Shown: positions 20,469 to 64,000 of the stretch, piece by piece | Layout of the letters: the number at the start of each line of letters is the position of its first letter | How positions within the stretch are numbered: the first letter of the stretch is position 1 | From: Sorghum bicolor | Taxonomy: Eukaryota > Streptophyta > Magnoliopsida > Poales > Poaceae | NCBI RefSeq assembly: GCF_000003195.3 | Contig: NC_012873.2 | Span: forward strand, 13,415,894 to 13,479,893 | DNA length: 64,000 bases | Direction: 5' to 3' | Notes under the pieces: generated by a model | Database searches by the model: none | What the model was told of the DNA's origin: nothing | What the model saw: the letters and a program-made list of their open reading frames with translations, nothing else | Made by a program: the position numbers and the translations under genes

Positions 20469-21167
20469 TGTTGATGCAAAAGCTGATCTGCAAACACAAA
20501 GGGCTAATACCCGATTTAAACGTTAAGGCGTGCCAGCCGATTTGACCTTACTATCGGCAAAGGTGGTAACTCGAATACTTTGGTCCCGACAACAGCGATG
20601 CGCCCGGATGCCACGGCCAAAAGGTATTCACACGAAACTTGAGAACACGTCGAGCTTAAGTCGACGAATTCCTAAGAACTCGTAACGAAAAGGAAAAAAG
20701 TATGACGAAGTCGTCGAAAAAGTAGATGCTAGAATTTGAGTAAAAACGTGTGTTTGATTGATTGATAGATAAATTCTTTACAAGGCCCTAGGGTCTACAT
20801 TTATACCCTGCTCAAAGAGCTACAACCAGACACGACTAGGATTCGAATTCCAAATTTAAACAGAATCCGTGTACAAAACGACTTAAATAACTAAGGAAAA
20901 CGCAAAACTATCCTCACGTGACAAACTAGAACACCCCCACAAGCCGACCGGCAACTTCCAGGCTCTCCCTCCGTATCATCGGCAGACTCCCTTATCATAG
21001 CCATCGGCACAAGCACATCGTCACCTATGGACTCGGTCACGTTCCGCCATACTTCCATCGGCAACCATCCTCATCGGCAACTCACCCTGTAGATCAAGCA
21101 CTGCCGTCTTATCTTACCGACCTACACTTTACCAATCATGGACACGTGCCTAAAAACGGTGTCAACA
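20469..21167 (-). repeat. 3' LTR of Tat copy A
   Basis: TG...CA ends on the minus strand (TGTTGACACCG...GCATCAACA). It includes a TATAAATGTAGACCC promoter-like segment (forward 20805-20815) and six exact GCCGAT/ATCGGC hexamers. It is directly preceded, on the minus strand, by the polypurine tract. Confidence 0.95.
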
Positions 21168-21185
21168 CATGCCCCCCAATTTCGG
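21168..21185 (-). other. Polypurine tract of Tat copy A
   Basis: The minus strand reads AAATTGGGGGGCATG immediately before the 3' LTR, the expected primer site for plus-strand DNA synthesis. The same tract precedes the LTR at 56921. Confidence 0.8.
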
Positions 21186-21793
21186 AGTATGAAATCATTA
21201 ATACTCCAAAATTCTCTGCAGTAATGATGCCTTTCCGCAATTAATGCTCCCAATCTGGTAACCGACAGCCTTAATCTGAACAACTCTGATCATATTCCTC
21301 TGCAGATTCCTCCAAATCCTCAACCTCCCAAACGGACATTTCCACTTTAGTCGCGCATCTGCAATATTACCGTTACAGGGACTTGCCGATGGACGTCCAT
21401 ATCCCATCCTCCCAAACGGCTATCTCCACTTTATTCGCCCATCGGCAATATGACCGTTACAAGGCGCTGCCGATGGACCGACCAGGAGATCTCGCACAGT
21501 GAAATATCTGTGGACAATGACCGCTTCCTGTCAAATCGCCTGCACAATCCCTTGATTACCGTGCGAACAGTTACCCCTCGGATTTCACGGATACGGCGAA
21601 GAGATAAGTCAAATTTACCCTTGCCCGTTTTGTTCTATAAATAGTTCCTTCTCGGGTACTCCTTCTTCATCACATCATTCCACAGCTCCAACTTCACTTT
21701 CCCGGCGGCGGTGCTGTTCAAGAGCTCCAAGATCCCCAAGGAAACCCCTTCTTCACCAACTCCGAAGCCTTCGACCATCCTCTTCGTGACAAG

Positions 21794-24700
21794 ATGGCCA
21801 TCAACTTCACCGTTCCTGAGGTTAGTTCTTCACTCCACCTTTTGTGCTTTTTCTCACATCCCTGTTCATCCGCAATCCATTTTACTGAACATTTTCTTTT
21901 TCTTTCTTTGTTCTTCTTTTACCTTCAAAAACCATTAGGATCTGTCCAACAAAATTGTCATCCCCACCGATCAACCACACCTCCAATGCCTTGGTCCGTT
22001 AGGGAATCCAGATCCAACCGAGCTCATTAACGCAGAAACCAACAGAATCCCTTTTAGAGCCGAGAACTTTTCTTTAGATCTATGGAAGGATACTTTCCGT
22101 TCTTGGCTCAGTCCTACCGTGGGATGGACGGATTGTTTCTTGAGGGTTAGCCACTCAAATGAAGTCCAGTGGGGCGAGAGAAAACTAGACCAATGCATCA
22201 GGTTGTCTATTGCCGATATGCATAGAAATGAATCACTGCTGATAGCTGCATCACACTTCTGGTCAGACACGCTCAACGCTTTTGTCTTTGGCCACGGCCC
22301 TGCCTCCCCTACTCTTGCCGATGTAGCTATGCTCACTGGCCTAGATGTATCTTCTGCCGATAGCACTCATTTCTTCGATACCAAACCCAGTGCTAAGATA
22401 GAAACTCGTGTCATCGGCGGTTGGTCAGGGTACATCCAAAAATACAGACGAACAGGCCCTGTCAACATAAAGGAGCAGACCAGCTTCCTGAACATGTGGT
22501 TAGATAAATTCGTGTTTTGCGGCCGATCGGCAGGACCAACTTCCGTTTACCTAGCAGCAGCAAGAAAATTTGGCTAACGGTGGCCGATTTCCCCTCGGCC
22601 GATACCTGCTCGGTGCAGCCTATCACCTCCTTCACCAAGTGACTAGGAAACTCCTACTCGGCCAGTCTATCGTCAACTTGGGAGGTCCCTGGTGGTTCAT
22701 CAACATGTGGCTCAGTCTCCACATGCACAAGCGTCTTGAGTTTGACCTTTTTGCACAGCGTTTTCCAAGAGACATAGCCGAGGACTATGAACTGGATGAA
22801 GAAGAATCGGCAACACGCCCTCCCCTAAACTTTGGTGAAGCTGTCATAGTTCTACCTGGTACAGGGGGTAATGCAGACCAGGTCAGTCGATTCTTCCAAA
22901 CCTTGTATGAAGGCTTGACCAGAGAGGAGCGAGCATGGTTGGCTTATGACGATCCAGACACCATGTTTCCTCTGGTTTTCAACCCATTCAATGATGCTCT
23001 TATCACGGATCACGAAGTGAAGATGGCACTGGTCACTCCCAGAGCTATACCAGTGAATTTCTTTGGCAGTGGGAAAACCTCCAACCAGACCTATGAGTTT
23101 TACAACCCATCGGCATTAGCTCGTCAATTAGCTTTTGGCCAGCTGCCGATTGCACTCTGTTATGACGATGTGATAAAACCCAGGGAAACCATCACTAGCC
23201 TCCTTGAATGGATCCGAGTAGCCCAACTGCCATCAAGTGCCGATACAGATGTAGACTTGTCAGAGTGGGTTCCAGCCGCCTTCATCACTCAGGCGTACAA
23301 GCAATGGTGGGCAGAATGGAAGGAACATCTGTTCTGCAGATCGGCTCTTACGTATCGCGGCATGATCGACCCCGAGTACAAAGTTCCCGATAACACTGTA
23401 AGTATCTTCAAACCGATGTTTCAATTTTCTCATTTTTATTTCCATTGGCGATTTACCTTTGTATCATCCTGCAGGTTGACAACACCCCTCCATCGGTCAG
23501 CAGGAGTGGCAAGCCGATTGACCTATTCCCATCTGGTCCAATCTCTTCAATCGGCAACAACTCTCCCACCCTGGCCGCCATCATGCATCGAGGTGTACGC
23601 CTCAAGAAAGTCACCACTAGGAGGACTCAAATATCTCCATCGGTAGCCGCTTCCACTTTGGCATAGGTATTCAAGGTAATTGTTAAACCTTTTCATTCAT
23701 ACCAATTCTTATTTTACATCTGCCACACTTGTACTCATAAACCTTTTCCACATCAGCAGACCGGCGCATCGGCAAAGACCAGAAGCAAAAGTGCCGATGC
23801 CCCCCAGTCCAGTCAACCGAAGAGAAAGGGTGCCAAGAACACCAGGGCACAAGCAAAGCGCCAAAGGGTAGCAACGCCTCCTCCTCCTCCCCCGGTATCT
23901 CCAATCCCAGTGGAATCTTCTCCTTCTTCTCCAGAAGCCCAGATGCAACAAGTGCCATCTCCCCCTCCAGTGCAAGAAGCACCACAAGTGGAAGAACCCC
24001 AACCAGAAGAGCCTCAACCAGAAGTACCTCAACCAGAAGACACATCGGCTGATGTGCATGAACGAACTACCGATCCAGCAGGTTCCATTATAGCATCGGT
24101 GGTCTCTTCCATCCAGACAAGTACTGCTCTTCCTCAAGGTAACACACTTTTATAATATTACTGCCGATGAACTTATTTTTCCAACTTTATAACCTCTTCT
24201 GTTAATTTTTAGCTGACATAGTTCCATCGGCAACTCTGGCCGATCAACCCGTGGCTCCATCGGCATCTTCGAGTCAGAGGCGGGAGATTGCCCTGAAACA
24301 AGTAAGTTATCCAACCCCTGTTTGCATCATTTATCAATACCTGACCATAGAATAACTCGTTTTATTTCCTTTTCAGGAGCAGGACTCTCCCGACAGCTTG
24401 TTCTCTTTCGCCATCGACATCTCCGAAGATGAGGGTGAAGAAGCAAGCTCTTCTCGAGCAGTTGTGATCACATCGGCAGAAGTCAGGGCGAAGCTGGAAG
24501 AATTATCGGCTCTCCTCCACCAAGACACAGCCCAGCTAGTCGATGATTCCGATCCGGCTAAGGCTTTATTCATGACTCTGAGGGGCCACATCCCCGTCGA
24601 TGCCGAAGAAGTTCTCTTTCAAGCAGCACACCTGGAGAGCCGTCAACTGCAATACCAGAGGGCTGCCCAGCGCCTTGCCGACAGAGTCGCTCAGACTCGT

Positions 24701-25072
24701 CTTTCCGAGGAGATGATGAAAGAAAAACTTCTTACCGATGAAAAGCATAAGACCATCGGCACCCTGAAGTCCCCGGGAGATGCACTGAAGCACAAAATCT
24801 CCGATCTGTCGGCAAAAAGAGAAGCTCTATTGGCAGAACTTAAACAAGTAGAGAATGCCCTGTCCCAAGCCAGACAGGAAGAAAGCCAACTGCCGGAAAC
24901 AATCAAGCTTCTTGAGCAAGAGCGAAATGTCCATAGTCACAAAGCACTGTAGTTGAAGAAGAAGTTGAAGCCAGTAGAAGGTTCTGAAGATGAAGACGTC
25001 AAAGAGATAGAAGCAGCCAATCAAATCCGCCTGCGTGCTATATCAGCCATCCAAGCGCTGCTAAACATGTGA
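21794..25072 (+). pseudogene. Antisense plant-mobile-domain (PMD) gene carried by Tat copy A
   Basis: This gene lies between integrase and the 3' LTR and runs opposite to gag-pol. Splice sites define six exons: 21794-21820, 21939-23397, 23475-about 23666, 23757-24138, 24213-24301 and 24377-25072. All introns are GT-AG and phases match. Exon 2 encodes the plant mobile domain (GWTDCFLRV, ADVAMLTGLDV, GGPWWFINMWLSLHM, YNPSALARQLAFGQLP). Exon 4 is Pro/Glu-rich and lysine-rich. Exon 6 is acidic, then a long coiled coil (about residues LEELSALLHQ to LLEQERNV). Damage: a one-base insertion near 22569 (AAAATTTGG), a TAG at 23664-23666 and a TAG at 24950-24952. PMD genes are known passengers of Tat elements; their role is unknown. 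Confidence 0.8.
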
Positions 25073-25229
25073 GCACTTCATCGGCAACATACTCACCTCT
25101 CTCTGCTTTCCAGCTTTCTTGATGTTTAGTCTAGCCGATAGGACTGTTATCGGCATCTTTTGAAACATTAAGCTCGGCCTCAGACACATTTCAATTTAGC
25201 CGATAGGAGTGTTATCGGCACTTAAACCT

Positions 25230-26522
25230 TTATGCATCGACCCATATGCTTGGGTAGTACTTCTTCAGATATTTGCCATTTAATGCTCTGGGAAATTCAA
25301 CTCCTTCGAGAGTTTCTAGAATATAGGCATTACCAGGAGCCGATCGACTTATCCGATAGGGACCCTCCCAATTGGGAGACCACTTCCCAAATTTTGAACT
25401 TTTAGTCCCGATCGGCAAGATCAATTTCCATACCAAGTCTCCATCGGCAAACTCCTTAGCCTTCACTTTCTTATCGTACCATCTAGCAACTCTCTTCTTA
25501 TTTTCTTCTATACTCATTAAAGCCTTTAACCGATGTCCTGCTAGATCGTCTAACTCATCGGTCATCAAAGTGGCATAATCATCGACAGCCAATTGATCTT
25601 GAAAAGATAGTCGCCTAGATCCAGTCTTAATTTCCCAAGGTAACACTGCATCATGCCCATACACCAACTGATAAGGTGAAACCTTAGTTGATCCATGATA
25701 AGCCATTCGATAGGACCATAAAGCTTCACTTAACAATGTGTGCCACCGCTTAGGATTTTCTTCAATTTTTCGTTTGATAAGCTTGATAATTCCTTTGTTA
25801 GATGCCTCGGCCTGTCCATTAGCTTGAGCATAATAAGGAGAAGAGTTTAACACCTTAATTCCCATACCGATTGCGAATTCATCAAACTCCCCCGATGTGA
25901 ACATAGTACCCTGATCGGTAGTGATTGTTTGAGGAATCCCAAATCGGTAAATAATGTGCTCCTTCACAAAATCAATCATATTGGCCGAGGTAACTTTCTT
26001 CAAAGGAATAGCCTCAACCCATTTGGTGAAATAATCGGTGACAACCAAGATAAACTTATGCCCTTTGCTAGATGGCGGATAAATCTGACCGATTAAGTCA
26101 ATAGCCCACCCCTGGAACGGCCAAGGTTTGATAATAGGATTCATGGCCGATGCGAGTGCTCTTTGAATGTTGCCAAATTTCTGACATCCTTGACATCCCT
26201 TGAAATATTTAAAGCAATATTCAAGTATGGTCGGCCAATAATACCCGTTCCTCCTAATCATCCACTTCATCTTAAAAGCCGACTGATGTGCTCAACATAC
26301 CCCTTCATGGATTTCTCCCATCAAACTCTTAGCTTCATCATCACCTAAGCATCGGAGAAGAATCCCATCAACAGTTCGATAATACAATCCATCTTTGAGG
26401 AGCACATACTTGGTGGCTTGAAACCGAACTCGTCTTTCGACTTTCTTGGATGGATCTTTCAAATAGTCAACGATTTCTTTTCTCCAATCATCGGCACCAA
26501 TTGCCGATATTGCATTAATCAT
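25230..26522 (-). pseudogene. Tat copy A integrase
   Basis: The integrase inserts element cDNA into the genome. The catalytic core shows D (GWAIDLIGQ), D (ITTDQGTMF) and E (GQAEASNKG), followed by a C-terminal domain ending KYYPSIWVDA. The preceding zinc-binding part (RYYWPTILEYCFKYFKGCQGCQ) is present. One nonsense codon (TGA at about 26292-26294; copy B has GGA) separates it from the linker LLKDGLYYRTVDGILLRCL. The core itself is uninterrupted from 26270 to the stop at 25230. Confidence 0.9.
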
Positions 26523-28462
26523 AGCTGATATCCCGAGGCTTGCTGAGCCAACCGATTGGTCTCTTCATTATGCAATCGAGGAACATACTCTAATCGAAAA
26601 TCCTTGAATTCCTTTAACAATTGCATACTCCGCTCGTAATAAGTTATGAGAACTTCATTTCGGCACTCATAGCTTCTAGTCAATTGATTTATAACTAGCA
26701 TAGAATCCCCAAAAACTTCGACAGCATCAGCATGAACTTCCCTTAACAATTCCAATCCCTTTATTAAAGCTTGATACTCAGCCTGATTATTCGTCGACGT
26801 GGCAACAATTGGCAAGGAAAACTCATACTTCCTTCCCCGAGGGGAAATTAATACTATACCCATTCCTGCCCCCTGGTCACATGTAGATCCATCAAAGAAA
26901 AGCGTCCAAGGTACAATTCCCAAAGCCTCCACTGTACCGCAATGTTGAGTTACAAAATTGGCCACAATCTGCCCTTTAACTGCCTTAGCCGATTCATAAC
27001 GCAGATCGAACTCCGACAGCGCCAAAATCCATTTACCGATCCTGCCACTCATAATCGGCATGGACAGCATGTACCGGACCACGTCATCTTTGCAAATAAC
27101 AGTGCATTCGGCCGATAACAAGTAGTGCCTTAACTTGATACAAAAGAAATATAGGCACAAACATAGTTTCTCAATAGCCGAATACCTGGTCTCAGCATCA
27201 ATCAACCTCCTGCTTAAGTAATAAATTACACGCTCCTTCCCTTCAAATTCTTGAATTAAAGCCGAACCGATGGCCATCCCATCGGTAGACAAATACAATC
27301 TGAAGGGCTTCCCTTGCTGAGGTGGAATTAGAACTGGAGGGTTCACTAAATAATTCTTGATTTCGTCCAGAGCCAACTGTTGTTCCTTCCCCCAAACAAA
27401 CTCTTGATCGGCCTTTAACTTAAGAAGAGGACTGAAAGCACGAATTTTACCAGACAAATTAGATATAAACCTTCTGATAAAATTTACCTTGCCGATCAAG
27501 GACTGGAGCTCGGTCTTGTTGGTAGGGGCCACTATCTTATTGATGGCATCAATAGATCTTCGACTGATTTCAATCCCCCTTTGGTGCACCATGAAACCAA
27601 GAAATTGTCATGCCGATACACCAAATGCACACTTATTGGGATTCATTTTCAAACCATGCTTCCTTGTGCACTCTAACACCTTTCGTAAATCGGCAAGATG
27701 CTTTGTGAAGTCTCCAGATTTTACCACCACATCATCAATATAAATCTCCACCAGCTTGCCGATGAACTCATGAAATATAAAATTCATGGCCCTTTGATAA
27801 GTAGCACCAGCATTCTTTAAGCCGAAGGTCATGACTATCCATTCAAACAATCCAACATGACCAGGGCACCTGAACGCGGTCTTTGGAATATCCTCTTCAG
27901 CCATGAATATTTGATTGTATCCTGCATTGCCATCCATAAAGCTAATAATCCGATGCCCAGCCGCAGCGTCAACTAGCAGATCGGCAACTGTCATTGGGTA
28001 TCCATCCATCGGTGTAGCTTTGTTGAGATTCCTGAAATCAATGCAGACCCGAAGCTTCCCATTCTTCTTATAGACCGGAACAACATTGGAAATCCGCTCG
28101 GCATACCGACACTGCCGAATAAACTTGGCTTCAATAAGTTTGGTTATCTCGGCCTTAATATCAGGGAGGATATTAGGATTTCATCGGCGAGCCGGCTGCT
28201 GATGTGGCCGAAATCCAGACTTGATAGGTAACCGATGTTCAACAATTGATTGGTCCAAACCAGGCATCTCAGTATAATCCCAAGCAAAGCAATCTTTATA
28301 TTCCTTTAACAAATCGGTTAACTGTTGCTTACACTCAGAATCTAATTTAGCACTAATAAAAGTGGGTCTAGGCTTATCACCACTACCTATATCTACTTCT
28401 ACTAGATCATCGGCCGATGTGAATCCCTGGCCTAACTTTCCATCATCGGCGAACCTATCCAT
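26519..28462 (-). pseudogene. Tat copy A reverse transcriptase and dual RNase H
   Basis: The reverse transcriptase contains RVCIDFRNLNKATP-type motifs, FMDGNAGYNQI and the catalytic YIDDVVV. It is followed by gypsy RNase H (LYLSTDGMAIGSALIQEF, YSAIEKLCLCLYF) and a second plant-type RNase H (LFFDGSTCDQGAGMGIV, TNNQAEYQALIKGLELL, VFGDSMLVINQL). The N-terminal piece begins near ISAKLDSECKQQL. Stops relative to copy B: TGA at 28181-28183 (copy B has TGT) and TGA at about 27608-27610. A one-base deletion near 26524 shifts the frame before the integrase. Confidence 0.92.
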
Positions 28463-29448
28463 TAAAAACCTTCATCAGAACCGACTGCTTGGATCGGTGG
28501 AATCTCGTAATCGGCAACCTTAAGAAAATCCTTTTCCCAAATTTCTCCTGAAATACACCTAGTCTTTTCGTAGGTGTCTGCCTCTGCTGATGTGATGACA
28601 TAAGAAGAATCTCCTGGGACAATTTCAATCTTGTCACCTACCCACTGGACCAAGCATTGGTGCATTGTAGACGGGATGCAACAATTAGCATGAATCCTAT
28701 CTCTTCCCAACAGTAAGTTGTAAGCACCCTTTCCACTGATCACGAAGAATGTTGTCGACAAGGTTTTACTGCCGATGGTCAACTCTACGCATATTGCCCC
28801 CTTTACCGGAGACACATTTCCTTCAAAATCCTTAAGCATCATATCAGTCTTGGTTAAATCCTGATCCCCTTTCCCAAGCTTCCGATACACTGCATATGGC
28901 ATGATATTAATAGCGGCTCCACCATCAATCAGAATCTTGGTCATCGGCTGACCATCCACTTTTCCTTTAACAAACAGGGCCTTGAGGTGCTGCCTTTCAT
29001 CATCGGCAGGCTTCTCGAAGATAGCCGTCATCGGATCCAGAGCCAACTGAGCTATCTGGTCAGAAAATTCCAACTCATCATCACTGGATGGTGCAAGGAA
29101 CTCCATCGGCAACATTAATACCATGTTGACATCTGCCGATGGACCTTTCCCCTTAGGATCTGATTGTTGCTGATCCCCAGACTGTCCAGAGTTCTCCCCT
29201 TTGCTTAACTCTTCTCGCCTTTCGTGCTGCAGTCTTCTCTTTTGAGTCCTGGTCAACCCCTCTGGACACCATGGAGGCAGTTGCTGCTGCCTTACCGATG
29301 GGCGATGACTCTCCCTTGACTCCACCCGATAAGTATTGGCATCCCTACAAAATACGAACTCATCGGGAACCCGAGCATTAGCCATTTCTTCAAGTTCTTC
29401 CTGGTTCCTGGGAGAATATTGAACACGATCGCCAAGCCTGTCGTGCAC
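28462..29448 (-). CDS. Tat copy A protease and gag C-terminal region
   Basis: An open frame starts just after a G-run frameshift near 29455 and carries the gag tail (SADVNMVLMLPMEFLAPSS) followed by a retropepsin domain. The active-site region is ILIDGGAAINIMP, and the flap/late motif is NLLLGRDRI. The aspartic protease would cleave Gag-Pol. It is uninterrupted within this segment but cannot be translated in frame with the upstream gag. This segment is exactly what copy B has lost. Confidence 0.85.
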   Translation of the reverse strand: MHDRLGDRVQYSPRNQEELEEMANARVPDEFVFCRDANTYRVESRESHRPSVRQQQLPPWCPEGLTRTQKRRLQHERREELSKGENSGQSGDQQQSDPKGKGPSADVNMVLMLPMEFLAPSSDDELEFSDQIAQLALDPMTAIFEKPADDERQHLKALFVKGKVDGQPMTKILIDGGAAINIMPYAVYRKLGKGDQDLTKTDMMLKDFEGNVSPVKGAICVELTIGSKTLSTTFFVISGKGAYNLLLGRDRIHANCCIPSTMHQCLVQWVGDKIEIVPGDSSYVITSAEADTYEKTRCISGEIWEKDFLKVADYEIPPIQAVGSDEGF

Positions 29449-29455
29449 GCTGAGC

Positions 29456-32118
29456 CTGCCCCCAGCCGATCGTGAACGGACGCTCTTCCTCTGATCGGCC
29501 CATTAGATCGCCGATTGTCGTCGTGATAGCGCCGATTGGATCTATCATACCGATCATAACCGTTGCACTCAGGGCACTCTCTGACAGTGGGAAGCTTAAT
29601 ATTCTCCTCCCAACAATGAATGAAGAACGGGCAATTCCAGTGATCCCTATGCCGATTCCATTCTTGTCGGCGTCTTTCCTCTTCCCGACGATAATCCTCT
29701 TGCTGGCGCCGGTACCGATCTTCACGTTGCTGCCAAGTCTCCCGAGGCCTCCTGTGAGTTATCACAATACCAGATCGGGGAGGCCTTCCTGAGTTAGCTC
29801 CCTCCTGGATCAAGCCTTTTCCTTTGGCATCGGCAGTAGTGATCTGATGCTGAGGATCCACCGATGCACTTCTTTCAGCTGCTTCCGACGTCAAGACCTT
29901 GGCCTTTCCCTTAGCATCCAACATGTTCGTTGGGAAAGGATGTTGATCAATCTTCATCGGCTTCTGGGTCTTGGAACTATCAAATTTGATCCTTCCAGAC
30001 TCTATAGCCGATTGCAGCTGCTGTCTGAAAACCTTGCACTCATTAGTGTCGTGAGAAGTTGCATTGTGCCACTTGCAATACTTCATCCTTTTTAATTCTT
30101 CAACCGATGGGATCACATGATTAGGTGACAGCTTGATCTGACCTTCCTGGAGCAGAAAGTCAAATATCCTATCAGCCTTGGTGGTGTCGAACGCGAACTT
30201 CCCTGGTTCTTTATGTCCAAAAGGACAAGACATCGGCTTTTTATTTTTCACCCATTCTGCCAAGCCGATGACTGGTTCTTCATCGGAGTCCGAACTTGCC
30301 GCTTCATCCACAAATGATACCTTTTTATTCCATGCTCTCTTGGATTCAAACGGCTTGATGTCCTGATCAGAGATTCTCTGCACCAAATGACTTAAGCTTT
30401 CAAACTCCTGAGATGCATATTTGTCCCTTATGTGCGGCAACAAGCCCTGGAAAGCCAAATCGGCTAGCTGCCGATCATCCAGAACCAGGCTATAGCATTT
30501 GTTCTTGACCTCCCGTATCCTCTGCACGAAACTTTCAACCGATTCATCATTGCGTTGCCTTAATTTGACCAAATCGGTGATCTTCTTCTCATGGACCCCA
30601 GAAAAGAAGTATTTGTGGAATTGTTTCTCCAAATCGGCCCAGGTAATCACTGAGTTGGGAGGTAATGATATAAACCAGGTGAAAGCTGATCCAGACAACG
30701 ATGACGAGAATAAGCGAACCCTTAACTCGTCTCTGTTACCAGCTTCCCCGCATTGAATGATGAACCTGTTGACATGCTTCATGGTTGACGTGTCATCCTG
30801 CCCAGAAAACTTAGTAAAATCCGGTACCTTGTACTGATTTGGAAGCGGCATAGACTTTGGGAGGATACGGTGTCCGATAAGAATAAGTGTTGACTTTGGG
30901 CTTTATCCCAAATTGATCCCTCATTACTTCAGCAATCTTATCGGCCCAATAAGCATCGACATCTTGCCGATGAGGTGGTTGCGGATCCGGCGCCTGCTGG
31001 TAAGCTTCCACGTGTCTGTGCGGCGCACGATCTGCATGAAACATTGGGTTAATCATTTGGCCCCCAATCTGCGGACCCCCAAGCTGTTGCCTGCCAATCT
31101 GCTGTCCGCCGACCTGCTACCCGAGATTCATTGGCTGGTTAGGGATCCCCTGATTCTGGAACCCGAGATGGATCTGGCCTTGCTGGAACCCTGTAGCCTG
31201 ATGACTCTGTTGGGGTGTTTGCGGAAAGACTTGCTGCCCAAGCCATCCACTATTAGCATTCATCGGCATAGGCCCTGCCGATGATTGGTAATTGGGCATT
31301 ATCATTGAATTGACATACCCTGGTTGAGTCATAAACCTCTGTTGCATCAGCATTGAGTCTGCCGATGCGTTAGGCATCTGGAACGTTGGAGCTTGAGAAT
31401 TCCCAGTGTAAGGTCTTGCAGTAGTAGTTGTAGTATACTGGGGACTTTGATTCATCGGCATATTAGGAGGTGTCGATGCCATAGGAGCCTTGCCTCTCAT
31501 GTCAGTTGCCTGAGATGTGCCAGGCGTCTTCAAGTATTCCGGGGGCATACCGAAACCCCACCAGTTAGGAGGAGGAACCGGTCCTGACATTGCCGATGCT
31601 AATAGATCTGTAGTGAGCCTAATCTGCTCATCTGAAGTCGGTGGATTGGCTGTCATCGGCGTAGATTGTGCATTAGTGACTCCCAACGTACTTGGAGGAA
31701 CGGTAGTCTGTATTCCCGCAGCGGGTGTAGCGGCTGGTGGAGCTGTGACCACCGGTGACCCTGGCTAGTGATGAGAGGAGCCCACATAATCTGGTGGCAA
31801 TTGTCTTTCCTTGAAGGTTCTGGCCACGACATTGAAAACCGTATTGGACAGTACACCAGCTTGGTTGATCAAAGCACGGTTGATAGCACTATCAACCATC
31901 TCTTGAAGTTTACCAGGATTGGCTTCAAAAGTAACCTGCCGAGGCGTCGGCAGTGCATCCTTCTGGATCACTTCGCCGCTCCTGTTCATACTGAAGGATC
32001 TCAGGCACTGCTGCTTGTAATCCTCCATGGCTTTAGCAATAGCTTGCTTCTGCTCATCCTTGAGATTGGCTTCCATCACGGGGATGACGTTCTCTTGATC
32101 AAACTCAGAAGTCGACAT
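29456..32118 (-). pseudogene. Tat copy A gag
   Basis: The start is ATG at 32118 (MSTSEFDQENVIP). A Gln/Pro/Met-rich middle follows, then the capsid-like domain (KVPDFTKFSGQDDTSTMKHV, AFTWFISLPPNSVITWADLE, FVQRIREVKNKCYSLVLDDR). The C-terminal part is rich in Arg and charged residues (RYRRQQEDYRREEERRRQEW). The frame is broken by TAG at 31765-31767 and 31117-31119 (both CAG in copy B), an indel near 30845, and one G missing from a G-run near 29455. It packages element RNA in the cytoplasm in intact relatives. Confidence 0.88.
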
Positions 32119-32164
32119 GTTGATCTTGATCTTGAATCTGTCCCACTGGGCATGCCAAAAGATG

Positions 32165-32863
32165 TGTTGATGCAAAAGCTGATCTGCATACACAAAGGGC
32201 TAATACCCGATTTAAACGTTAAGGCGTGCCAGCCGATTTGACCTTACTATCGGCAAAGGTGGTAACTCGAATACTTTGGTCCCGACAACAGCGATGCGCC
32301 CGGATGCCACGGCCAACAGGTATTCACGCGGAACTTGAGAACACGTCGAGCTTAAGTCAACAAATTCCTAAGAACTCGTAACGAAAAGGAAAAAAGTATG
32401 ACGAAGTCGTCAAAAAAGTAGATGCTAGAATTTGAGTAAAAACGTGTGTTTGATTGATTGATAGATAAATTCTTTACAAGGCCCTAGGGTCTACATTTAT
32501 ACCCTGCTCAAAGAGCTACAACCAGACACGACTAGGATTCGAATTCCAAATTTAAACAGAATCCGTGTACAAAACGACTTAAATAACTAAGGAAAACGCA
32601 AAACTATCCTCACGTGACAAACTAGAACACCCCCACAAGCCGACCGGCAACTTCCAGGCTCTCCCTCCGTATCATCGGCAGACTCCCTTATCATAGCCAT
32701 CGGCACAAGCACATCGTCACCTATGGACTCAGTCACGTTCCGCCATACTTCCATCGGCAACCATCCTCATCGGCAACTCACCCTGTAGATCAAGCACTGC
32801 AGTCTTATCTTACCGACCTACACTTTACCAATTATGGACACGTGCCCAAAAACGGTGTCAACA
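32165..32863 (-). repeat. 5' LTR of Tat copy A
   Basis: 699 bp, same ends as the left LTR. Immediately inside it the minus strand reads CATCTTTTGGCATGCCCAGTGGGAC, where the primer binding site is expected; I could not assign the tRNA with confidence. Confidence 0.95.
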
Positions 32864-46601: not shown

Positions 46602-47620
46602 ATGGCAGCAAGGGAAAGAGGCAGAGGTAGAGGCCTTGGTAGGGGTGCTAATGCTCCAATCTCAGTGGAGGAACTTATGCATACATAGAATGAGATGATG
46701 CATGCATTCCTACAACATCTTCAGCACCAGCCTACAGCTCCACCACCACCACCACCTGCCTATGTGATGGATAAGCGTGGCGAGTTTATGAAGGGACGAC
46801 CTCCAGTGTTCACTCATTCTGCTGATCCTATGGAAGTAGATGATTGGTTGCGTGCTGTGGAAAGACAGTTAAACATAGCTCAGTGCAATGATCTAGAGAA
46901 GGTGCTATATGCTTCTGGACAGCTACAGGGAGCAGCTCAAACTTGGTGGGAATCATACCAAGCTGCTCGTCCTGATAATGCTCCCGCCGTCACTTGGCAA
47001 GAATTATGTAGAGATTTTAAGGCACGTCACATCAATGAAGGGATGATAGAGATAAAGCAAGAAGAGTTTAGATCACTCAGAATGGGCTCTATGACCGTTG
47101 CAGAGTATCATGATGTCTTTGAGCAGCTGGCTCGCTATGCTCCGAATGAGGTCAAGGAAGATGTTGATAAGCAGCGTCTATTTATGAAAGGCCTTTACTA
47201 TGATCTCAGATTGCAGTTGGCTGGAAACACTTACCCTACTTTCCAAGCTCTGGTGAACCGTGCCATTGTGCTGGATGATATGCGCAAGAGTCAGGATCGG
47301 AAGAGGAGAATGCAAGGACAAAGTTCGGGTAGTAATAACCGCCTGTGCTTTGGCTCTCAACAAGGTTTCCATCAGAGTTATCAGGGACCAGTTAGTCAGT
47401 GGAACCATGATCAGTATCCTCAGCATACCAGAATCAACAGCAGAGTGGGAATCAGCGCTTTCATTTTCAGCAACGTAACTCTTATTAGTAGCAGGATGGT
47501 CGACAGACACCTCAATCAAGGAATCCTAATGCCACCCCTAGGAAGAACAGTGCTCCCAAGACTCCTAACAGGTGTTTCCACTGTGGAAAGGATGGACATA
47601 TGTCTTATAATTGTCCAAAG
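46602..47620 (+). pseudogene. Tekay-type gag
   Basis: The ATG at 46602 begins MAARERGRGRGLGRGA. A TAG at 46686-46688 interrupts before NEMMHAFLQHLQ. The capsid domain contains PMEVDDWLRAVERQLNIAQC, AAQTWWESYQ and RHINEGMIEIKQEEFRSL. A frameshift near 47430 and two adjacent TAG codons near 47487 precede the zinc knuckle [14 protein letters not shown] (about 47577-47620), which is in the frame of the downstream pol. The leader 45677-46601 has no other coding feature. Confidence 0.88.
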
Positions 47621-48797
47621 AATTTCAACCCACAGAATTCCCAAGGGCAAAACAGCAACCAGGAGAACAATCGGACACCTAACACTAGAAGAGTGAATCA
47701 TGTGTCTGCAGAGACAACTATGGAGGATCCTAAAGTTATGATTGGTATGTTTGATGTCCATTCCACTCCCGCTACCGTTCTTTTTGATTCTGGAGCTTCA
47801 CATACTTTCATTTCACAAGCTTTTGTTAGAACCCATAATATACCTGCTTGTGCCATGAAGAGCCCCATAACCGTAAATTCACCAGAAGGGACTATACCAG
47901 CTTCACATTGTTGCTTTCCAGTTAATTTGACTTTAAGGGGGGTAGACTTTAAAGTGAGCCCCATAGTGTTGAGAACAGTTGGAGTTGATCTCATATTGGG
48001 TACAGATTGGATGATGCAACAAGATGCAAAGATTGAGTGTGAAGGGAAGGTAATGGAACTAACATCACCAACTGGAGACCGACTCAAGGTAGAGGTTAAG
48101 GTGCAGGAACAAAAGACTTCCATAGTGAACCAGTTGAATGAAGATGCTAAACCTCAGGACCGTGTTGTGAATGAATTCCCAGATGTATTTACAGATGAAT
48201 TGCCGGGTATGCCACCTAACCGTGACATCGAGTTTATAATTGAATTACTAGCTGGTACTGCACCTATCGCTAAAAGACCATATAGAATGGGGGTTAATGA
48301 GCTAGAAGAACTTAAGAAACAAATAAAGGAATTGCAAGATAAAGGGTTCATTCGTCCTAGTTCATCACCATGGGGTGCACCAGTTATCTTTGTTGATAAG
48401 AAGGATGGTAGTCAAAGGATGTGTGTTGATTATCGGTCACTTAATGAGGTCACTATCAAGAATAAATATCCCTTGCCTAGGATTGATGACTTGTTTGATT
48501 AGCTAAGAGGTGCTTGTGTGTTCTCTAAGATTGATTTGCATTCTGGTTATCATAAATTGAAGATTCAGAATTCAGATATACCAAAGACAGCTTTCACATC
48601 AAGGTATGGGTTGTATGAGTATACAGTTATGTCTTTTGGTTTGACCAATGCACCAGCTTACTTTATGTACATGATGAATAAAGTATTTATGGAGTATCTT
48701 GATAAGTTTGTGGTGGTCTTTATTGATGATATTCTGGTATTCTCTAAAACCAATGAAGAACATGCTGAACATCTGAGAATGGTCTTACAGAAACTAT
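47621..48797 (+). pseudogene. Tekay-type protease and truncated reverse transcriptase
   Basis: The retropepsin active site is [13 protein letters not shown]. Reverse transcriptase motifs include [55 protein letters not shown] and the catalytic [15 protein letters not shown] at 48500-48502 falls between PRIDDLFD and LRGACVFSK. The frame ends at [10 protein letters not shown], where the inserted LTR begins at 48798. Confidence 0.92.
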
Positions 48798-54235: not shown

Positions 54236-54933
54236 TGTTGACACCGTTTTTGGGCACGCGTCCATGATTGGTAAAGTGTAGGTCGGCAAAATAAGGCGGC
54301 AGTGCTTGATCTACAGGGTGAGTTACCGATGAAGATGGTTGCCGATGGAAGGATGGTTGAACGTGACCAAGTCCATAGGTGATGATGTGTTTGTGCCGAT
54401 GGCTGTGACAAAGGAGTCTGCCGATGATGTAGGGGAAGAACCTGGAAGTTGCCGATCGGCTTGTGAGGGTGTTTTAGTTTGTCACGTAAGGGTGGTTTTA
54501 CGTTTTCCTTAGTTATTTAGGTCGTTTTGTACACGGATTCTGTTTAAATTTGGAATTCGAATTCTAGTCGTGTCTGGTTGTAGCTCTTTGAGCAGGGTAT
54601 AAATGTAGACCCTAGGGCCTTGTAATAGACATCTAAATCAATCAATCAAACACAAGTTTTTACTCATATTCCAACATCTACTTTTCGACGACTTCGTCAT
54701 ACTTTTTTCCTTTTCATTACGAGTTCTTAGGAGTTCGTCGACTTAAGCTCGGTGTATTCTCGAGTTCCGCGTGAATACCTCTTGGCCGTGACATCCGGGT
54801 GCATCGCTGTTGTCGGGACCAAAGTATTCGAGTTATCACCTTTGCCGATACTAAGGTCAAATTGGCTGGCACACCTTAACGTTTAAATCGGGTATTAGCC
54901 CTTTGTGTTTGCAGATCAGCTTTTGCACCAACA
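54236..54933 (+). mobile_element. Solo Tat-family LTR inserted in Athila gag
   Basis: 698 bp from TGTTGACACC to GCACCAACA, nearly identical to the LTR at 56921-57618, flanked by perfect AGTTC duplications (54231-54235 and 54934-54938). No internal sequence, so it arose by LTR-LTR recombination after insertion. Confidence 0.95.
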
Positions 54934-56920: not shown

Positions 56921-57618
56921 TGTTGACACCGTTTTTGGGCACGTGTCCATGATTGGTAAAGTGTAGGTCGGCAAAATAAGGCGGCAGTGCTTGATCTACA
57001 GGGTGAGTTACCAATGAAGATGGTTGCCGATGGAAGGATGGTTGAACGTGACCAAGTCCATAGGTGATGATGTGTTTGTGCCGATGGCTGTGACAAAGGA
57101 GTCTGCCGATGATGTAGGGGAAGAACCTGGAAGTTGCCGATCGGCTTGTGAGGGTGTTTTAGTTTGTCACGTAAGGGTGGTTTTACGTTTTCCTTAGTTA
57201 TTTAGGTCATTTTGTACACGGATTCTGTTTAAATTTGGAATTCGAATTCTAGTCGTGTCTGGTTGTAGCTCTTTGAGCAAGGTATAAATGTAGACCCTAG
57301 GGCCTTGTAATAGACATCTAAATCAATCAATCAAACACAAGTTTTTACTCATATTCCAGCATCTACTTTTCGACGACTTCGTCATACTTTTTTTCTTTTC
57401 ATTACGAGTTCTTAGGAGTTCGTCGACTTAAGCTCGGCGTATTCTCGAGTTCCGCGTGAATACCTCTTGGCCGTGACATCCGGGCGCATCGCTGTTGTCG
57501 GGACCAAAGTATTCGAGTTGTCACCTTTCCCGATAGTAAGGTCAAATTGGCTGGCACGCCTTAACGTTTAAATTAGGTATTAGCCCTTTGTGTTTGCAGA
57601 TCAGCTTTTGCACCAACA
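56921..57618 (+). repeat. LTR shared between truncated Tat element and copy B
   Basis: 698 bp, TGTTGACACC...CACCAACA. On its left is a Tat 3' tail, on its right a Tat 5' leader (CATCTTTTGGCACGCCCAG), so it serves as 3' LTR of one element and 5' LTR of the next. It contains TATAAATGTAGACCC at about 57283. Confidence 0.92.
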
Positions 57619-57664
57619 CATCTTTTGGCACGCCCAGTGGGACGGATTCAAGATCAAGATCAAC

Positions 57665-60600
57665 ATGTCGACTTCTGAGTTCGATCAAGAGAACGTCATC
57701 CCCGTGACGGAAGCCAATCTCAAGGATGAGCAGAAGCAAGCTATTGCTAAAGCCATGGAGGATTACAAGCAGCAATGCCTGAGGTCCTTCAGTATGAACA
57801 GGAGCGGCGAAGTGATCCAGAAGGATGCACTGTCGGCGCCTCGGCAGGTTAGCTTTGAAGCCAATCCTGGTAGACTTCAAGAGATGGTTGATAGTGCTAT
57901 CAACCGTGCTTTGATCAACCAAGCTGGTGTACTGTCCAACACGGTTTTCAATGCCGTGGCCAGAACCTTCAAGGAGGGACAATTGCCACCAGATTATGTG
58001 GGCCCCTCTTATCACCAGCCAGGGTCACCGGTGGTCACAGCTCCATCGGCTACCACAGCCGCTGTGGGAACACAGACTACCGTTCCTCCAAGTACGTTGG
58101 GAGTCACCAATGCACAATCTACGCTGATGACAACCAATCCACCGACTTCAGACGAGCAGACTAGGCTCACTACAGATCTATTGGCATCGGCAATGTCAGG
58201 ACTGGTCCCTCCTCCCAACTGGTGGGGTTATGGTATGCCCCTGGAATACTTGAAAACACCTGGCACGTCTCAGGCAACTGACATGAGAGGCAAGGCTCCT
58301 ATGGCATCGACACCTCCAAGTATGCCGATGAACCAGAGTCCCCAGTATACCACGACTACTACTGCAAGACCTTACACTGGGAATTCTCAAGCTCCAACGT
58401 TCCAGATGCCTAATACATCGGCGGACTCAATGCCGATGCAATAGAGGCCTACGACTCAACCAGGGTATGTCAATTCGATGATCATGCCCAATTACCAGTC
58501 ATCGGCAGGACTTATGCCGATGAATGCTAATAGTGGATGGCTTGGGCAGCAAGTCTTTCCACAAACGCCCCAAAAGAGTCATTAGGCTATCGGGTTCCAG
58601 CAAGGCCAGATCTATCCCGGGTTCCAGAATCAAGGGATCCCTAACCAGCCAATGAATCTCGGACAGCAGGTCGGCGGACACCAGATTGGCGGGCAACAGC
58701 TTGGTGGTCCGCAGATTGGGGGTCAGATGATTAACCCAATCTTTCATGCAGATCGTGCACCGCACAGACATGTGGAAGCTTACCAGCAAGTGCCGGATCC
58801 GCAACCGCCTCATCGGCAAGATGCCGATGCTTATTGGGCCGATAAGATTGCTGAAGTAATGAGAGACCAATTCGGGATAAAACCCAAAGTCAACACTTAC
58901 TCTTATCAGACACCGTATCCTCCCGCATATGATTTGATCCCGCTTTCGAATCGGTACAAGGTACCGGATTTTACCAAGTTTTCTGGGCAGGATGACACGT
59001 CAACCATGGAGCACGTCAACAGGTTCATCATTCAATGCGGGGAAGTTGGTAACAGGGACGAGTTAAGGGTCCGTTTATTCTTGTCATCGTTGTCCAGATC
59101 GGCTTTCACCTGGTTTATATCATTACCTCCCAACTCAGTCATTACTTGGGCCGATTTGGAGAAACAATTCCACAAATACTTCATCTCTGGGGTCCATGAG
59201 AAGAAGATCACCGATTTGGTCAAATTAAGGCAACGCAATGATGAATCTGTTGAGAGTTTTGTGCAGAGGATACGGGAAGTCAAGAACAAATGCTATAGCC
59301 TGGTTCTGGATGATCGGTAGCTAGCCGATTTGGCTTTCCAGGGTTTGTTGCCGCACATAAGGGACAAATATGCGTCTCAGGAGTTTGAAAGCTTAAGTCA
59401 TTTGGTGCAAAGAATCTCTGATCAAGATATCAAGCCGTTTGAACCCAAGAGGGCATGGAATAAAAAGGTATCATTTGTGGATGAAGCGGCAAGCTCAGAC
59501 TCTGATGAAGAACCAGTCATCGGCTTGGCAGAATTGGTGAAAAATAAGAAGCCGATGTCTTGTCCTTTTGGACATAAAGAACCAAAGAAGTTCACGTTTG
59601 ACACCACTAAGGCCGATAGGATATTTGACTTTCTACTTCAGGAAGGTCAGATCAAGCTGTCACCTAATCACGTGATCCCATCGGTTGAAGAATTAAAAAG
59701 GATGAAATGTTGCAAGTGGCACAATGCAACGTCTCACGGCACTAATGAGTGCAAGGTTTTCAGACAGCAGCTGCAATCGGCTATAGAGTCTGGAAGGATC
59801 AAATTTGACAGTTCCAAGACCCAGAAGCCGATGAGGATTGATCAACATCCTTTCCCAACGAACATGTTGGATGCTAAGGGAAAGGCCAAGGTCTTGACAT
59901 CGGAAACAGCTGACAGAAGTATATCGGTGGATCCTCAGCATCAGATCACTACTGCCGATGCCAAAGGAAAAGGCTTGATCCGGGAGGGAGCTAACTCAGA
60001 AAGGCCTCCCTGATCTGGTATTGTGATAACTCACAGGAGGCCTCGGGAGACTTGGCAACAACGTGAAGATCGGTATCGGCGCCAGCAAGAGGATTATCGT
60101 CGGGAAGAGGAAAGACACCGACAAGAATGGAATCGACATAGGGATCACTGGAATTGCCCGTTCTTCATTCATTGTTGGGAGGAAAATATCAAACTCCCCA
60201 CTGTCCGAGATTGCCCTGAGTGCAACGGTTATGATCGCTATGATAGATCCGATCGGCGCTACCACGACGACAATCGGCGATCTAATGGGCCGATTGGAGG
60301 AAGAGCATCCGTTCATGATCGGCTGGGGGGCAGGCTCAGCGTACACGACAGGCTTGGTGATCGTGTTCAATATTTTCCCAGGAACCAGGAAGAACTCAAA
60401 GAGATGGCCAATGCACGGGTTCCCGATGAGTTCATCTTCTGCCGAGATGCTAATACTTACCGAATGGAGTCAGGAGAAAATCGACACCAATCAGTAAGGC
60501 AGCAGCAACTTCCTCCCTGGTGTCCAGAGGGGTTGACCAGGACTCAGAAGAGAAGACTGCAGCGCGAAAGGCGAGAAGAGTTGAGTAAAGGGGAGAACTC

Positions 60601-60832
60601 TGGACAGTCCGGGGATCAGCAACAATCAGATCCTAAGGGGAATGGTCCATCGGCAGATGTCAACATGGTATTTATGTTGCCGATGGAGTTCCTTGCACCG
60701 TCCAGTGATGATGAGGTGGAATTTTCTGACCAAATAGCTCAGTTGGCTCTGGATCCGATGACGGCCATCTTCGAAAAGCCTACTGATGATGAAAGGCAGC
60801 ACCTCAAGGCCCTGTTTGTTAAAGGAATATAA
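57665..60832 (+). pseudogene. Tat copy B gag
   Basis: The ATG at 57665 starts MSTSEFDQENVIPVTEANL. Domains are as in copy A, including VPDFTKFSGQDDTSTMEHV and FHKYFISGVHEKKITDLVKL. Stops: TAG at 58442-58444, 58583-58585 and 59318-59320 (each CAG in copy A) and TGA at 60011-60013 (CGA in copy A). The frame from 60023 to 60832 covers the Arg-rich part and ends KALFVKGI just past a 661-bp deletion that removed the protease. Confidence 0.9.
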
Positions 60833-62534
60833 AGATTGCTTTGCTTGGGATTATACTGAGATGCCTGGTTTGGACCGATCAATTGTTGAACATCGGTTAC
60901 CTATCAAGTCTGGATTTCGGCCACATCAGCAGCCGGCTCGCCGATGTAATCCTAATATCCTCCCTGATATTAAGGCCGAGATAACCAAACTTATTGAAGC
61001 TAAGTTTATTCGGCAGTGTCGGTATGCCGAATGGATGTCCAACGTTGTTCCGGTCTACAAGAAGAACGGGAAGCTTCGGGTCTGCATTGATTTCAGGAAT
61101 CTCAACAAAGCTACGCCGATGGATGGATACCCAATGCCAGTTGCCGATCTGCTAGTTGACGCTGTGGCTGGGCATCGGATTATTAGCTTTATGGATGGCA
61201 ATGCAGGATACAATCAAATATTCATGGCTGAAGAGGATATTCCAAAGACCGCGTTCAGGTGCCCTGGTCATGTTGGATTGTTTGAATGGATAGTCATGAC
61301 CTTCGGCTTAAAGAATGCTGGTGCTACTTATCAAAGGGCCATGAATTTTATATTTCATGAGTTCATCGGCAAGCTGGTGGAGATTTATATTGATGATGTG
61401 GTGGTAAAATCTGAAGACTTCACAAAGCATCTTGCCGATTTACGAAAGGTGTTGGAGTGCACAAGGAAGCATGGTTTGAAAATGAATCCCAATAAGTGTG
61501 CATTTGGTGTATCGGCAGGGCAATTTCTTGGTTTCATGGTGCACCAAAGGGGGATTGAGATCAGTCGAAGATCTATTGACGCTATCAATAAGATAGTGGC
61601 CCCTACCAACAAGACCGAACTCCAGTCCTTGGTCGGCAAGGTAAATTTTATTAGAAGGTTTATATCCAATTTGTCTAGTAAAATTCGTGCTTTCAGTCCT
61701 CTTCTTAAGTTAAAGGCCGATCAAGAGTTTGTTTGGGGGAAGGAACAACAGTTGGCTCTGGATGAAATCAAGAATTATCTAGTGAATCCTCCAGTTCTAA
61801 TTCCACCTCAGCAAGGGAAGCCCTTCAGATTGTATTTGTCTACCGATGGGATGGTCATCCGTTCGGCTTTAATTCAAGAATTTGAAGGGAAGGAGCGTGT
61901 TAATTATTACTTAAGCAGGAGGTTGATTGATGCTGAGACCAGGTATTCGGCTATTGAGAAACTATGCTTGTGCTTATATTTCTCTTGTATCAAGTTAAGG
62001 CACTACTTGTTATCGGCCGAATGCACTGTTATTTGCAAGGATGACGTAGTCCGATACATGCTGTCCATGCCGATTATGAGTGGTAGGATTGGTAAATGTA
62101 TTCTGGCACTATCGGAGTTCGATCTGCGTTATGAATCGGCTAAAGCAGTTAAAGGGCAGATTATGGCCGATTTCGTAACTCAACATTGCGGCACAGTGGA
62201 AGCCTTGGAAATTGTACCTTGGACGCTTTTCTTTGATGGATCTACGTGTGACCGGGGGGCAGGAATCGGTATAGTATTAATTTCCCCTCGAGGAAGGAAG
62301 TACGAGTTTTCCTTGCCGATTGTTGCCACGTCGACGAATAATCAGGCTGAGTATCAAGCTTTAATAAAGGGATTGGAATTGTTAAGGGAAGTTCATGCTG
62401 ATGCTGTCGAAGTCTTTGGAGATTCTATGCTGGTTATAAATCAATTGGCTAGGAGATATGAATGCCGAAGTGAAGTTCTCATAACTTATTACAAGCGGAG
62501 TATGCAATTGTTGAAGGAATTCAAGGATTTTTGA
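60833..62534 (+). pseudogene. Tat copy B reverse transcriptase and dual RNase H
   Basis: An uninterrupted frame from the deletion point to TGA at 62532-62534 (CGA in copy A). It includes YKDCFAWDYTEMPGLDRS, RVCIDFRNLNKATPMDGYP, the catalytic YIDDVVV, LYLSTDGMVIRSALIQEF and the plant-type RNase H LFFDGSTCDRGAGIGIV...GDSMLVINQL. The catalytic residues appear intact, but there is no in-frame link to gag. Confidence 0.92.
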
Positions 62535-63886
62535 GTGGAGTATGTTCCTCGATTGCATAATGAAGATGCCAATCGATTGGCTCAGCATGCCTCGGGATAT
62601 CAGCCTATGATTAATGCAGTATCGGCAACTGGTGCCGATGATTGGAGAAAAGAGATCGTTGATTATTTGAAAGATCCATCTAAGAAAGTCGAAAGACGTG
62701 TTCGGTTTCAAGCCACCAAGTATGTGCTCCTCGAAGATGAATTGTATTATCGAACTATTGATGGAATTCTTCTCCGATGCTTAGGTGATGATGGAGCTAA
62801 GAGTTTGATGGGAGAAATCCATGAAGGGGTATGTGGAGCACATCAGTCGGCCTTTAAGATGAAGTGGATGATTAGGAGGAACAGGTATTATTGGCCGACC
62901 ATACTTGAGGATTGCTTTAAATATTTCAAGGGATGTCAATGATGTCAGAAATTTGGCAACATTCAAAGAGCACCCGCATCGGCCATGGATCCTATTATCA
63001 AACCTTGGCTGTTCCGGGGGTGGGCTATTGACTTAATCGGTCAGATTTATCCGCCATCTAGCAAAGGGCACAAGTTTATCTTGGTTGCCACCGATTATTT
63101 CACCAAATGGGTTGAGGCTATTCCTTTGAAGAAAGTTACCTTGGCCAATATGATTGATTTTGTCAAGGAGCACATTATTTACCGATTTGGGATTCCTCAG
63201 ACAATTACTACCGATCAGGGTACTATGTTCACGTCAGGGGAATTTGATGAATTCGCAATCGGTATGGGAATTATGGTGCGTATTATGCTCAAGCTAATGG
63301 GCAGGCCGAGGCATCTAACAAGGGGATTATCAAGCTTATCAAATGAAAAATTGAAGAAAATCCTAAGTGGTGGCACACATTGTTAAATGAAGCTTTATGG
63401 TCCTATTAAATGGCTTGTCATGGATCAACCAAGGTTTCACCTTATCAGTTGGTGTATGGACATGATGCAGTGTTGCCTTGGGAAATTAAGGCTGGATCTA
63501 GGCGACTAACTTTTCAAGATCAATTGGCTGCCGATGATTATGCTACTTTGATGACCGATGAGTTAGATGATCTAGCAGGACATCGGTTAAAAGCTTTAAT
63601 TAGTATAGAAGAAAATAAGAAGAGAGTTGCTAGATGGTATGATAAGAAAGTAAAGGCTAAGGAATTTGCCGATGGAGACTTGGTATGGAAGTTGGTCTTG
63701 CCGATCGGGACTAAAAGTTCGAAATTTGGGAAGTGGTCTCCTAATTGTGAAGGTCCTTATCGGATAAGTCGATCGGCTCCTGGTAATGCTTATATTCTAG
63801 AAACTCTCGAAGGAGTTGAATTTCCCAGAGCATTAAATGGCAAATATCTGAAGAAGTACTACCCAAGTATATGGGTCGATGCATAA
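62535..63886 (+). pseudogene. Tat copy B integrase
   Basis: Linker and zinc-binding part up to YFKGCQ, TGA at 62940-62942 (GGA in copy A), then the core AIDLIGQIYPP and ITTDQGTMF. A deletion of about 14 bp near 63274 shifts the frame before the catalytic Glu region. The C-terminal domain is open from 63410 to 63886 (ends YYPSIWVDA). Confidence 0.9.
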
Positions 63887-64000
63887 AAGTTTAAATGCCG
63901 ATAACACTCCTATCGGCTGGATTGAAATGCGTCTGGGGCCGGACTTAATGTTTCAAAAGGTGCCGATAACAGTCCTATCTGCTAGACTAAAACAACAAAA
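63887..64000 (+). other. Start of Tat copy B spacer
   Basis: It matches 25076-25229 of copy A in reverse complement; it contains GCCGATAACACTCCTATCGGC and GCCGATAACAGTCCTATC, two similar short inverted units. The window ends here. Confidence 0.75.

Follow-up and report, generated by a model that had tools for sequence, protein, structure and literature searches.

GCCGAT as a putative DNA-binding site repeated throughout a Tat-type retrotransposon family of Sorghum bicolor

Introduction

Accumulation of a short DNA word within a single transposon family has been described for the VANDAL elements of Arabidopsis, which are DNA transposons whose motif, YAGTATTAY, lies mainly in non-coding DNA, in tandem arrays and in one orientation (PMC5735166). 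Binding of VANC to the motif and loss of methylation have been reported for these elements (PMC5735166; PMC10398659). Retand retrotransposons have a long region between pol and the 3' long terminal repeat (LTR) with antisense open reading frames (ORFs), and tandem arrays in about half; antisense Transposase_28 (TRP28), predicted to be DNA-binding but of unknown function, is present in 97% of clusters (PMC11963269). The host PMD proteins MAIN and MAIL1 are required for silencing of transposable elements and for the expression of genes enriched in the promoter motif DOWN (PMC7156037). The current study concerns a Ty3-type LTR retrotransposon, copy A, within a 64,000-nucleotide stretch of the Sorghum bicolor genome (the window; NC_012873.2, positions 13,415,894 to 13,479,893), and the family to which it belongs, F1. 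The hexamer GCCGAT, read ATCGGC on the other strand, is scattered over nearly the whole of copy A.

The explanation favoured here is that GCCGAT is a putative double-stranded DNA binding site, multiplied and kept by selection across F1, and that the likeliest binder is an element-encoded, family-specific protein with an anti-silencing role like that of VANC in VANDAL elements. The chances for and against this explanation are judged to be evenly balanced.

Enrichment and placement of GCCGAT

Copy A contains 91 sites on the two strands together, compared with a mean of 4.7 and a maximum of 11 in 300 dinucleotide shuffles, and GCCGAT/ATCGGC is the top hexamer in copies A and B against both first- and second-order Markov expectation. 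The status of the hexamer as an outlier, proposed in the initial annotation, is therefore confirmed; the chance rate given there, about one site per 2 kb, becomes about one per 2.6 kb in the shuffles of copy A. The 161 sites of the window are divided between copy A, copy B (53), a solo LTR (6) and the remainder (11). Counts of six sites in the LTR at 20469-21167, seven in a pol stretch at 27001-27780 and none in a Tekay-type region at 46602-48797 were all reproduced. The stretch at 22561-25230 is indeed rich in the word (24 sites), but it is largely antisense gene region and not, as previously described, mere non-coding spacer. Near-variants had also been called common, which holds for ACCGAT (29 against 4.7 expected); the other 17 one-letter variants occur 3-14 times each against 3-8 expected, with the largest ratio for GCCGAC (9 against 3.2). 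Extension of the word to TGCCGATG is weak, with T before it in 56 of 91 sites and G after it in 47 of 91. RCCGAT accounts for 120 of the 489 CpGs in copy A.

Of 20 samples placed evenly over the genome, three contain family copies, with 45, 27 and 77 sites per 10 kb; four were entirely N, and counts in the remaining 13 range from 0 to 7. In the pericentromeric samples L012, L024, L014 and L023, the top hexamers number between about 20 and 108 per 10 kb, and probably represent satellite arrays.

The excess of GCCGAT is not a coding effect. When synonymous codons were shuffled inside the ORFs, leaving proteins and codon usage unchanged, a mean of 12.9 sites and a maximum of 24 were obtained in 1000 shuffles, compared with 61 observed, and all six phase and strand classes of the word were raised. 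This bears out the original claim that the word occurs in all codon phases and is not a peptide requirement.

Sites are present in the LTRs, the spacer, gag, pol and the antisense PMD gene of copy A, with 51 in element sense and 40 antisense; neighbouring sites are oriented +- in 29 cases, -+ in 28, ++ in 22 and -- in 11. A signal acting in RNA, for packaging, export or control of splicing, would have to accommodate this near-even use of the two strands, and is extremely improbable. The packaging role suggested in the initial annotation is likewise unlikely at the level of RNA, since the word is found on both strands. The word had been described as similarly frequent throughout, and most regions do have 5.9-9.3 sites per kb; density falls to 3.9 per kb in 21168-21938 and to zero in 31765-32164, at the start of gag. 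Matching gaps at the start of gag are found in copy B, with no site between 57140 and 58045, and in a further copy, L009, with none between 3171 and 3670. This motif-free stretch may carry a leader or packaging constraint.

The sites are dispersed and are not amplified sub-repeats. Mean likeness of the flanks of site pairs in copy A is 7.9 of 30 bases, compared with 7.6 for random pairs. Leaving aside the LTR pair, similar flanks are limited to a few site pairs, the best agreeing at 20 of 30 bases. Neighbouring sites are 15-17 bases apart in 9 of 90 pairs, with LTR pairs counted twice. Local duplication of the word, or its protection from mutation, could in principle give a similar picture, and Tandem Repeats Finder does report two short arrays in copy A (15 bp x 3.3 and 84 bp x 1.8), while a related family, F3, has a 70-bp array with two CGACCA words in each of 4.6 units. 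The dissimilar flanks, the use of all codon phases and the much poorer conservation of CG words in general argue against such an origin, and mutation would not readily produce the different words of related families (conservation and words are described below). An origin of this kind is considered very unlikely.

Conservation between copies of the family

Copies of F1 were compared with sequences taken from the same Sorghum genome as the window and given L numbers. L009 was chosen at a place found by a search for the word, which makes it a biased choice. L021, L026 and L027 were found among the 20 evenly spaced samples, which were drawn regardless of the word. In a one-way test on six of 15 possible pairs, with CG words clear of any site as controls, 74-85% of sites were intact between copies 85-89% identical, compared with 30-49% of controls. 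The counts were 48/57 sites against 431/1131 controls for A-L009, 29/39 against 211/627 for A-L021, 22/26 against 185/485 for A-L026, 60/74 against 704/1434 for A-L027, 29/35 against 292/712 for L009-L027 and 31/41 against 208/700 for L027-L021 (p 3.7e-6 to 6.4e-12). The difference holds in all six pairs when same-letter permutations of the word serve as the control. In a coarser two-way count on every one of the 15 pairs that six copies form, copy B among them, the motif scored 0.68-0.86 and other NNCGNN words 0.29-0.58, and the motif was ahead in each pair.

One-step neighbours turn into GCCGAT between copies at 0.06-0.13, compared with 0.013-0.014 for other CG-centred hexamers (4.5-9 times), and this rate ranks 1, 1, 1 and 2 among words in four pairs, in a symmetric count that mixes gains and losses. 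Taken together, these comparisons support selection on GCCGAT, which would extend to sites inside the genes of the element. Pol residues of F1 differ from those of other families at 60% of 35 codons touched by a site and at 51% of 650 codons in the comparison set, which is no clear difference.

By region, the excess of motif conservation is seen in gag-pol, in non-coding DNA (A-L021, 0.83 against 0.17) and in the LTR (A-L009, 0.92 against 0.51), with LTR sites conserved also in A-L027, a pair that shows the excess clearly in the PMD gene as well (0.79 against 0.35). Conserved LTR sites, and a word that appears selected, double-stranded and CpG-centred, would suit a host DNA-binding protein, such as a transcription factor or chromatin protein, recruited to the benefit of the family, with different Tat families using different host factors. 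Gag and the antisense gene are, however, as dense in sites as the LTR, and a literature survey judged by title found no GCCGAT-binding factor for retrotransposons. A host factor is regarded as unlikely.

Words of related families

A search with a degenerate reverse transcriptase (RT) motif gave 5865 places in the genome, with several family signatures among the first 100 listed. No relatives were found in viral_contigs and genome_contigs, and the comparison is thus confined to one plant species.

Family F2 comprises L031, L010 (an arbitrary stretch taken with L009) and parts of L021 and L026, and its RT is about 45% identical to that of F1. It has just 4 GCCGAT in 13.9 kb. In 8.5 kb of L010, CTCGA occurs 117 times (mean 33.9, maximum 53 in 60 shuffles) and CCTCGA 57 times (mean 10.7, maximum 21). 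The F2 word runs from LTR to LTR and declines at the element ends, where GC content declines too. In L021, CTCGA is intact at 44/58 sites, compared with 554/1117 CG words not touching TCGA. Codon-preserving shuffles are surpassed in the gag-protease ORF and in the tested part of pol; in the 1923-bp antisense ORF the shuffle maximum is just reached (28 against a mean of 15.0, maximum 28), and in a 945-bp antisense ORF the shuffles are not surpassed (5 against 3.4).

In a further group, comprising F3 (L032, L037), F7 (L036), F6 (L035) and the fragment F4 (L033), the word in excess is CGACCA, with 33 occurrences against 4.7 in L032, 17 against 4.0 in L036, 11 against 2.3 in L035 and 9 against 2.0 in L033, all above the maximum of 60 shuffles; L037 has 23. 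The F3 array, in L032 at 501-824, has 94% matches between units and contributes 9 of the 33 words of that sequence. Conservation of the F3 word (20/23 against 1364/2122 CG words, p 0.03) is suggestive only. F5, known from the single locus L034, is by RT the closest to F1 of the Tat relatives seen (51% identical) and has no saturating word; GCCAAT is raised there (13 against 4.0) but is clustered, with 8 of 13 in 1652-2178. None of the GCCGAT, CTCGA-type and CGACCA words is in excess in five Ty3-type samples of other lineages (L011, L017, L019, L020 and L025) or in the rest of the window.

These counts support a saturating word that is family-specific and appears to have been replaced in related families of the same genome. 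The initial annotation had assigned the saturation to a Tat family, and GCCGAT indeed proves specific to F1, with CTCGA/CCTCGA or CGACCA in other families. Family-specific words over whole elements would mark self, and could conceivably serve as a tag at integration, in target choice or target immunity, but this is considered improbable. A replication protein of the element, Gag nucleocapsid or integrase, might alternatively bind the sites and coat or condense double-stranded cDNA, or mark it for nuclear import or integration. Sites on both strands, spanning nearly the whole element with both LTRs and the coding parts, fit a coat better than a promoter function. Gag and integrase are general to Ty3 elements, yet the five samples of other lineages lack an excess of these words, and neither protein is known to coat DNA in a sequence-specific manner. 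This alternative, too, is unlikely.

Antisense genes and the proposed binding protein

Antisense PMD genes are present in the F1 copies L005, L006, L007 and L027. Antisense Transposase_28 is carried by three families with other words, F2 (L010), F3 (L032) and F7 (L036). In F5, no PMD or Transposase_28 match was found in the 3.4 kb downstream of pol or in a further 4 kb that possibly lies outside the element. A Pfam scan of six window ORFs and three L010 ORFs matched PMD and retrotransposon domains. By association, the antisense gene product is the leading candidate for the binder. One protein of the PMD set, P0095, matches the F2 LTR over 44 residues (L031 1681-1812, L010 7576-7707), and is probably a chimeric metagenome record.

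In the proposed mechanism, selection would multiply GCCGAT sites and keep them throughout the retrotransposon family. An element-encoded, family-specific protein would bind them, the best candidate being encoded by the antisense gene between pol and the 3' LTR, of PMD type in F1 and of Transposase_28 type in families with other words. High density over the entire element would let the protein pick out its own family and not lone sites elsewhere, and the bound protein may keep the element transcribable despite host silencing. A wider proposal, put forward tentatively, is a family-specific DNA code of Tat-type elements, in which each family would have its own antisense DNA-binding protein and a matching CGA-cored word (GCCGAT, CCTCGAG or CGACCAG) filling the whole element, genes included; protein and word would co-evolve, and the element could tell its own DNA apart.

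A number of results weigh against this explanation. The six pairs of the conservation test have sequences in common, so that their p values are not independent, and same-letter permutations are weakest for A-L021 (p 0.035). Conservation of the PMD gene sites is weak in A-L021 (0.44 against 0.30, 9 cells), and the LTRs of copies A and B show no excess (0.55 against 0.60). Conservation is not unique to GCCGAT, which ranks 2 of 80, 6 of 21 and 10 of 133 among hexamers with at least 20 cells in three pairs; the words above it include CTTGAA, TCCCAA and ATCCAT, which do not overlap it, and several others that do. Wrong-word controls in F1 are small (3/7, 6/11 and 2/3). In F2, a first conservation test of CTCGAG was not significant (12/17; p 0.09 and 0.2), and CGACCA is raised there too (L010, 15 against 5.3, maximum 10). 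The F3 word is not conserved above same-letter permutations (20/23 against 77/100, p 0.4), and in L017, a Ty3-type sample from a different lineage, 10 kb contain 28 copies of AACTAG where 5.9 are expected. As regards the binder, predicted models were unusable, with a mean pLDDT of 36.6 for the PMD protein P0007 (26 relatives) and 39.3 for the Transposase_28 protein P0122 (21 relatives). No match was obtained between the PMD and Transposase_28 profiles, both from shallow alignments (hhalign probability 0.1 of 100), so that two unlike proteins would be needed for one job. The antisense-gene link comes from a handful of families in one genome, with F5 represented by a single locus.

If binding by a family-specific element protein is nevertheless correct, VANC-like, sequence-specific self-recognition would have arisen in LTR retrotransposons, which make up the bulk of many plant genomes. 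Tat antisense genes, the function of which PMC11963269 calls unknown, would gain a concrete, testable target. F1 is also an unusual case of selection at the DNA level overprinting protein-coding sequence along nearly the whole of an element. An open-literature survey, mostly by title, found no report of any plant LTR retrotransposon saturated with a short word.

The element and its copies

Copy A lies on the minus strand, a correction to the initial annotation, and has 699-bp LTRs, gag, protease, pol and an antisense PMD gene positioned between pol and the 3' LTR (Table 1). Gag, protease, RT, RNase H and integrase follow in Ty3 order, and the 4.1-kb region between pol and the 3' LTR (21168-25229) contains antisense ORFs, a layout of Tat type. 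F1 is presumed to be a Tat family, after the label given in the initial annotation. It is both large and young: a first look gave 16,893 RT candidates, and the 150 matches that were scored are all at least 97% identical in amino acid sequence, many of them within a 1081-residue open frame.

Table 1. Features of family F1 in the window (positions counted from the first nucleotide of the window)
Feature	Position	Strand	GCCGAT/ATCGGC sites	Remarks
Copy A, Tat-type Ty3 retrotransposon (presumed)	20469..32863	-	91	Family F1
5' LTR of copy A	32165..32863	-	6	Repeat pair
3' LTR of copy A	20469..21167	-	6	Repeat pair
Site-free stretch, start of gag region, copy A	31765..32164	-	0	400 bases
Gag region, copy A	29292..31764	-	21 (8.5 per kb)	Retrotrans_gag PF03732, E 2.7e-15 on 29503-30902
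Protease ORF, copy A	28472..29502	-	6 within 28472-29291	gag-asp_proteas PF13975, E 1.7e-06
Pol (RT, RNase H, integrase), copy A	25230..28471	-	19	Several frames; rve PF00665, E 3.1e-15 on 25230-26291
Antisense PMD gene, copy A	21939..23300	+	13 in 21939-23393	Two-frame stretch 21939-23646; PF10536, E 8.5e-10 on 21939-22577
Second antisense ORF, copy A	24356..24952	+	3	No Pfam match at E 0.01
Copy B	56921..64000	+	53 in part within window	Family F1; cut by window end
Solo LTR	54236..54933	+	6	Family F1

Comparison with known systems

MAIN and MAIL1 share the PMD domain with the antisense gene of F1, but are host genes (PMC7156037). Like Retand, F1 has a long region between pol and the 3' LTR with antisense ORFs, and F2, F3 and F7 carry Transposase_28; unlike Retand, the antisense ORF of the window family has PMD instead of Transposase_28 (PMC11963269). 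No saturating short word is reported for Retand in the passages of PMC11963269 consulted; a term search of the paper gave 'hexamer' 0 times and 'motif' twice.

The initial annotation had likened the accumulation of GCCGAT to that of VANC motifs. In favour of this likeness are conservation about twice that of other CG words, the presence of the word on both strands and its apparent replacement in relatives; as in VANDAL/VANC, the word of F1 is short, dense, unique to one family and changed between related families. Unlike the mainly non-coding, tandem and uniformly oriented targets of VANC, the sites of F1 also lie in coding sequence, are mostly dispersed and occur in both orientations, with a CpG core, in an LTR retrotransposon for which the binder is only a candidate. 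The exception is the tandem array of F3 in L032, which is close to the VANC-target arrangement. By analogy, F1, while not a member of the VANDAL/VANC system, may work in a similar way.

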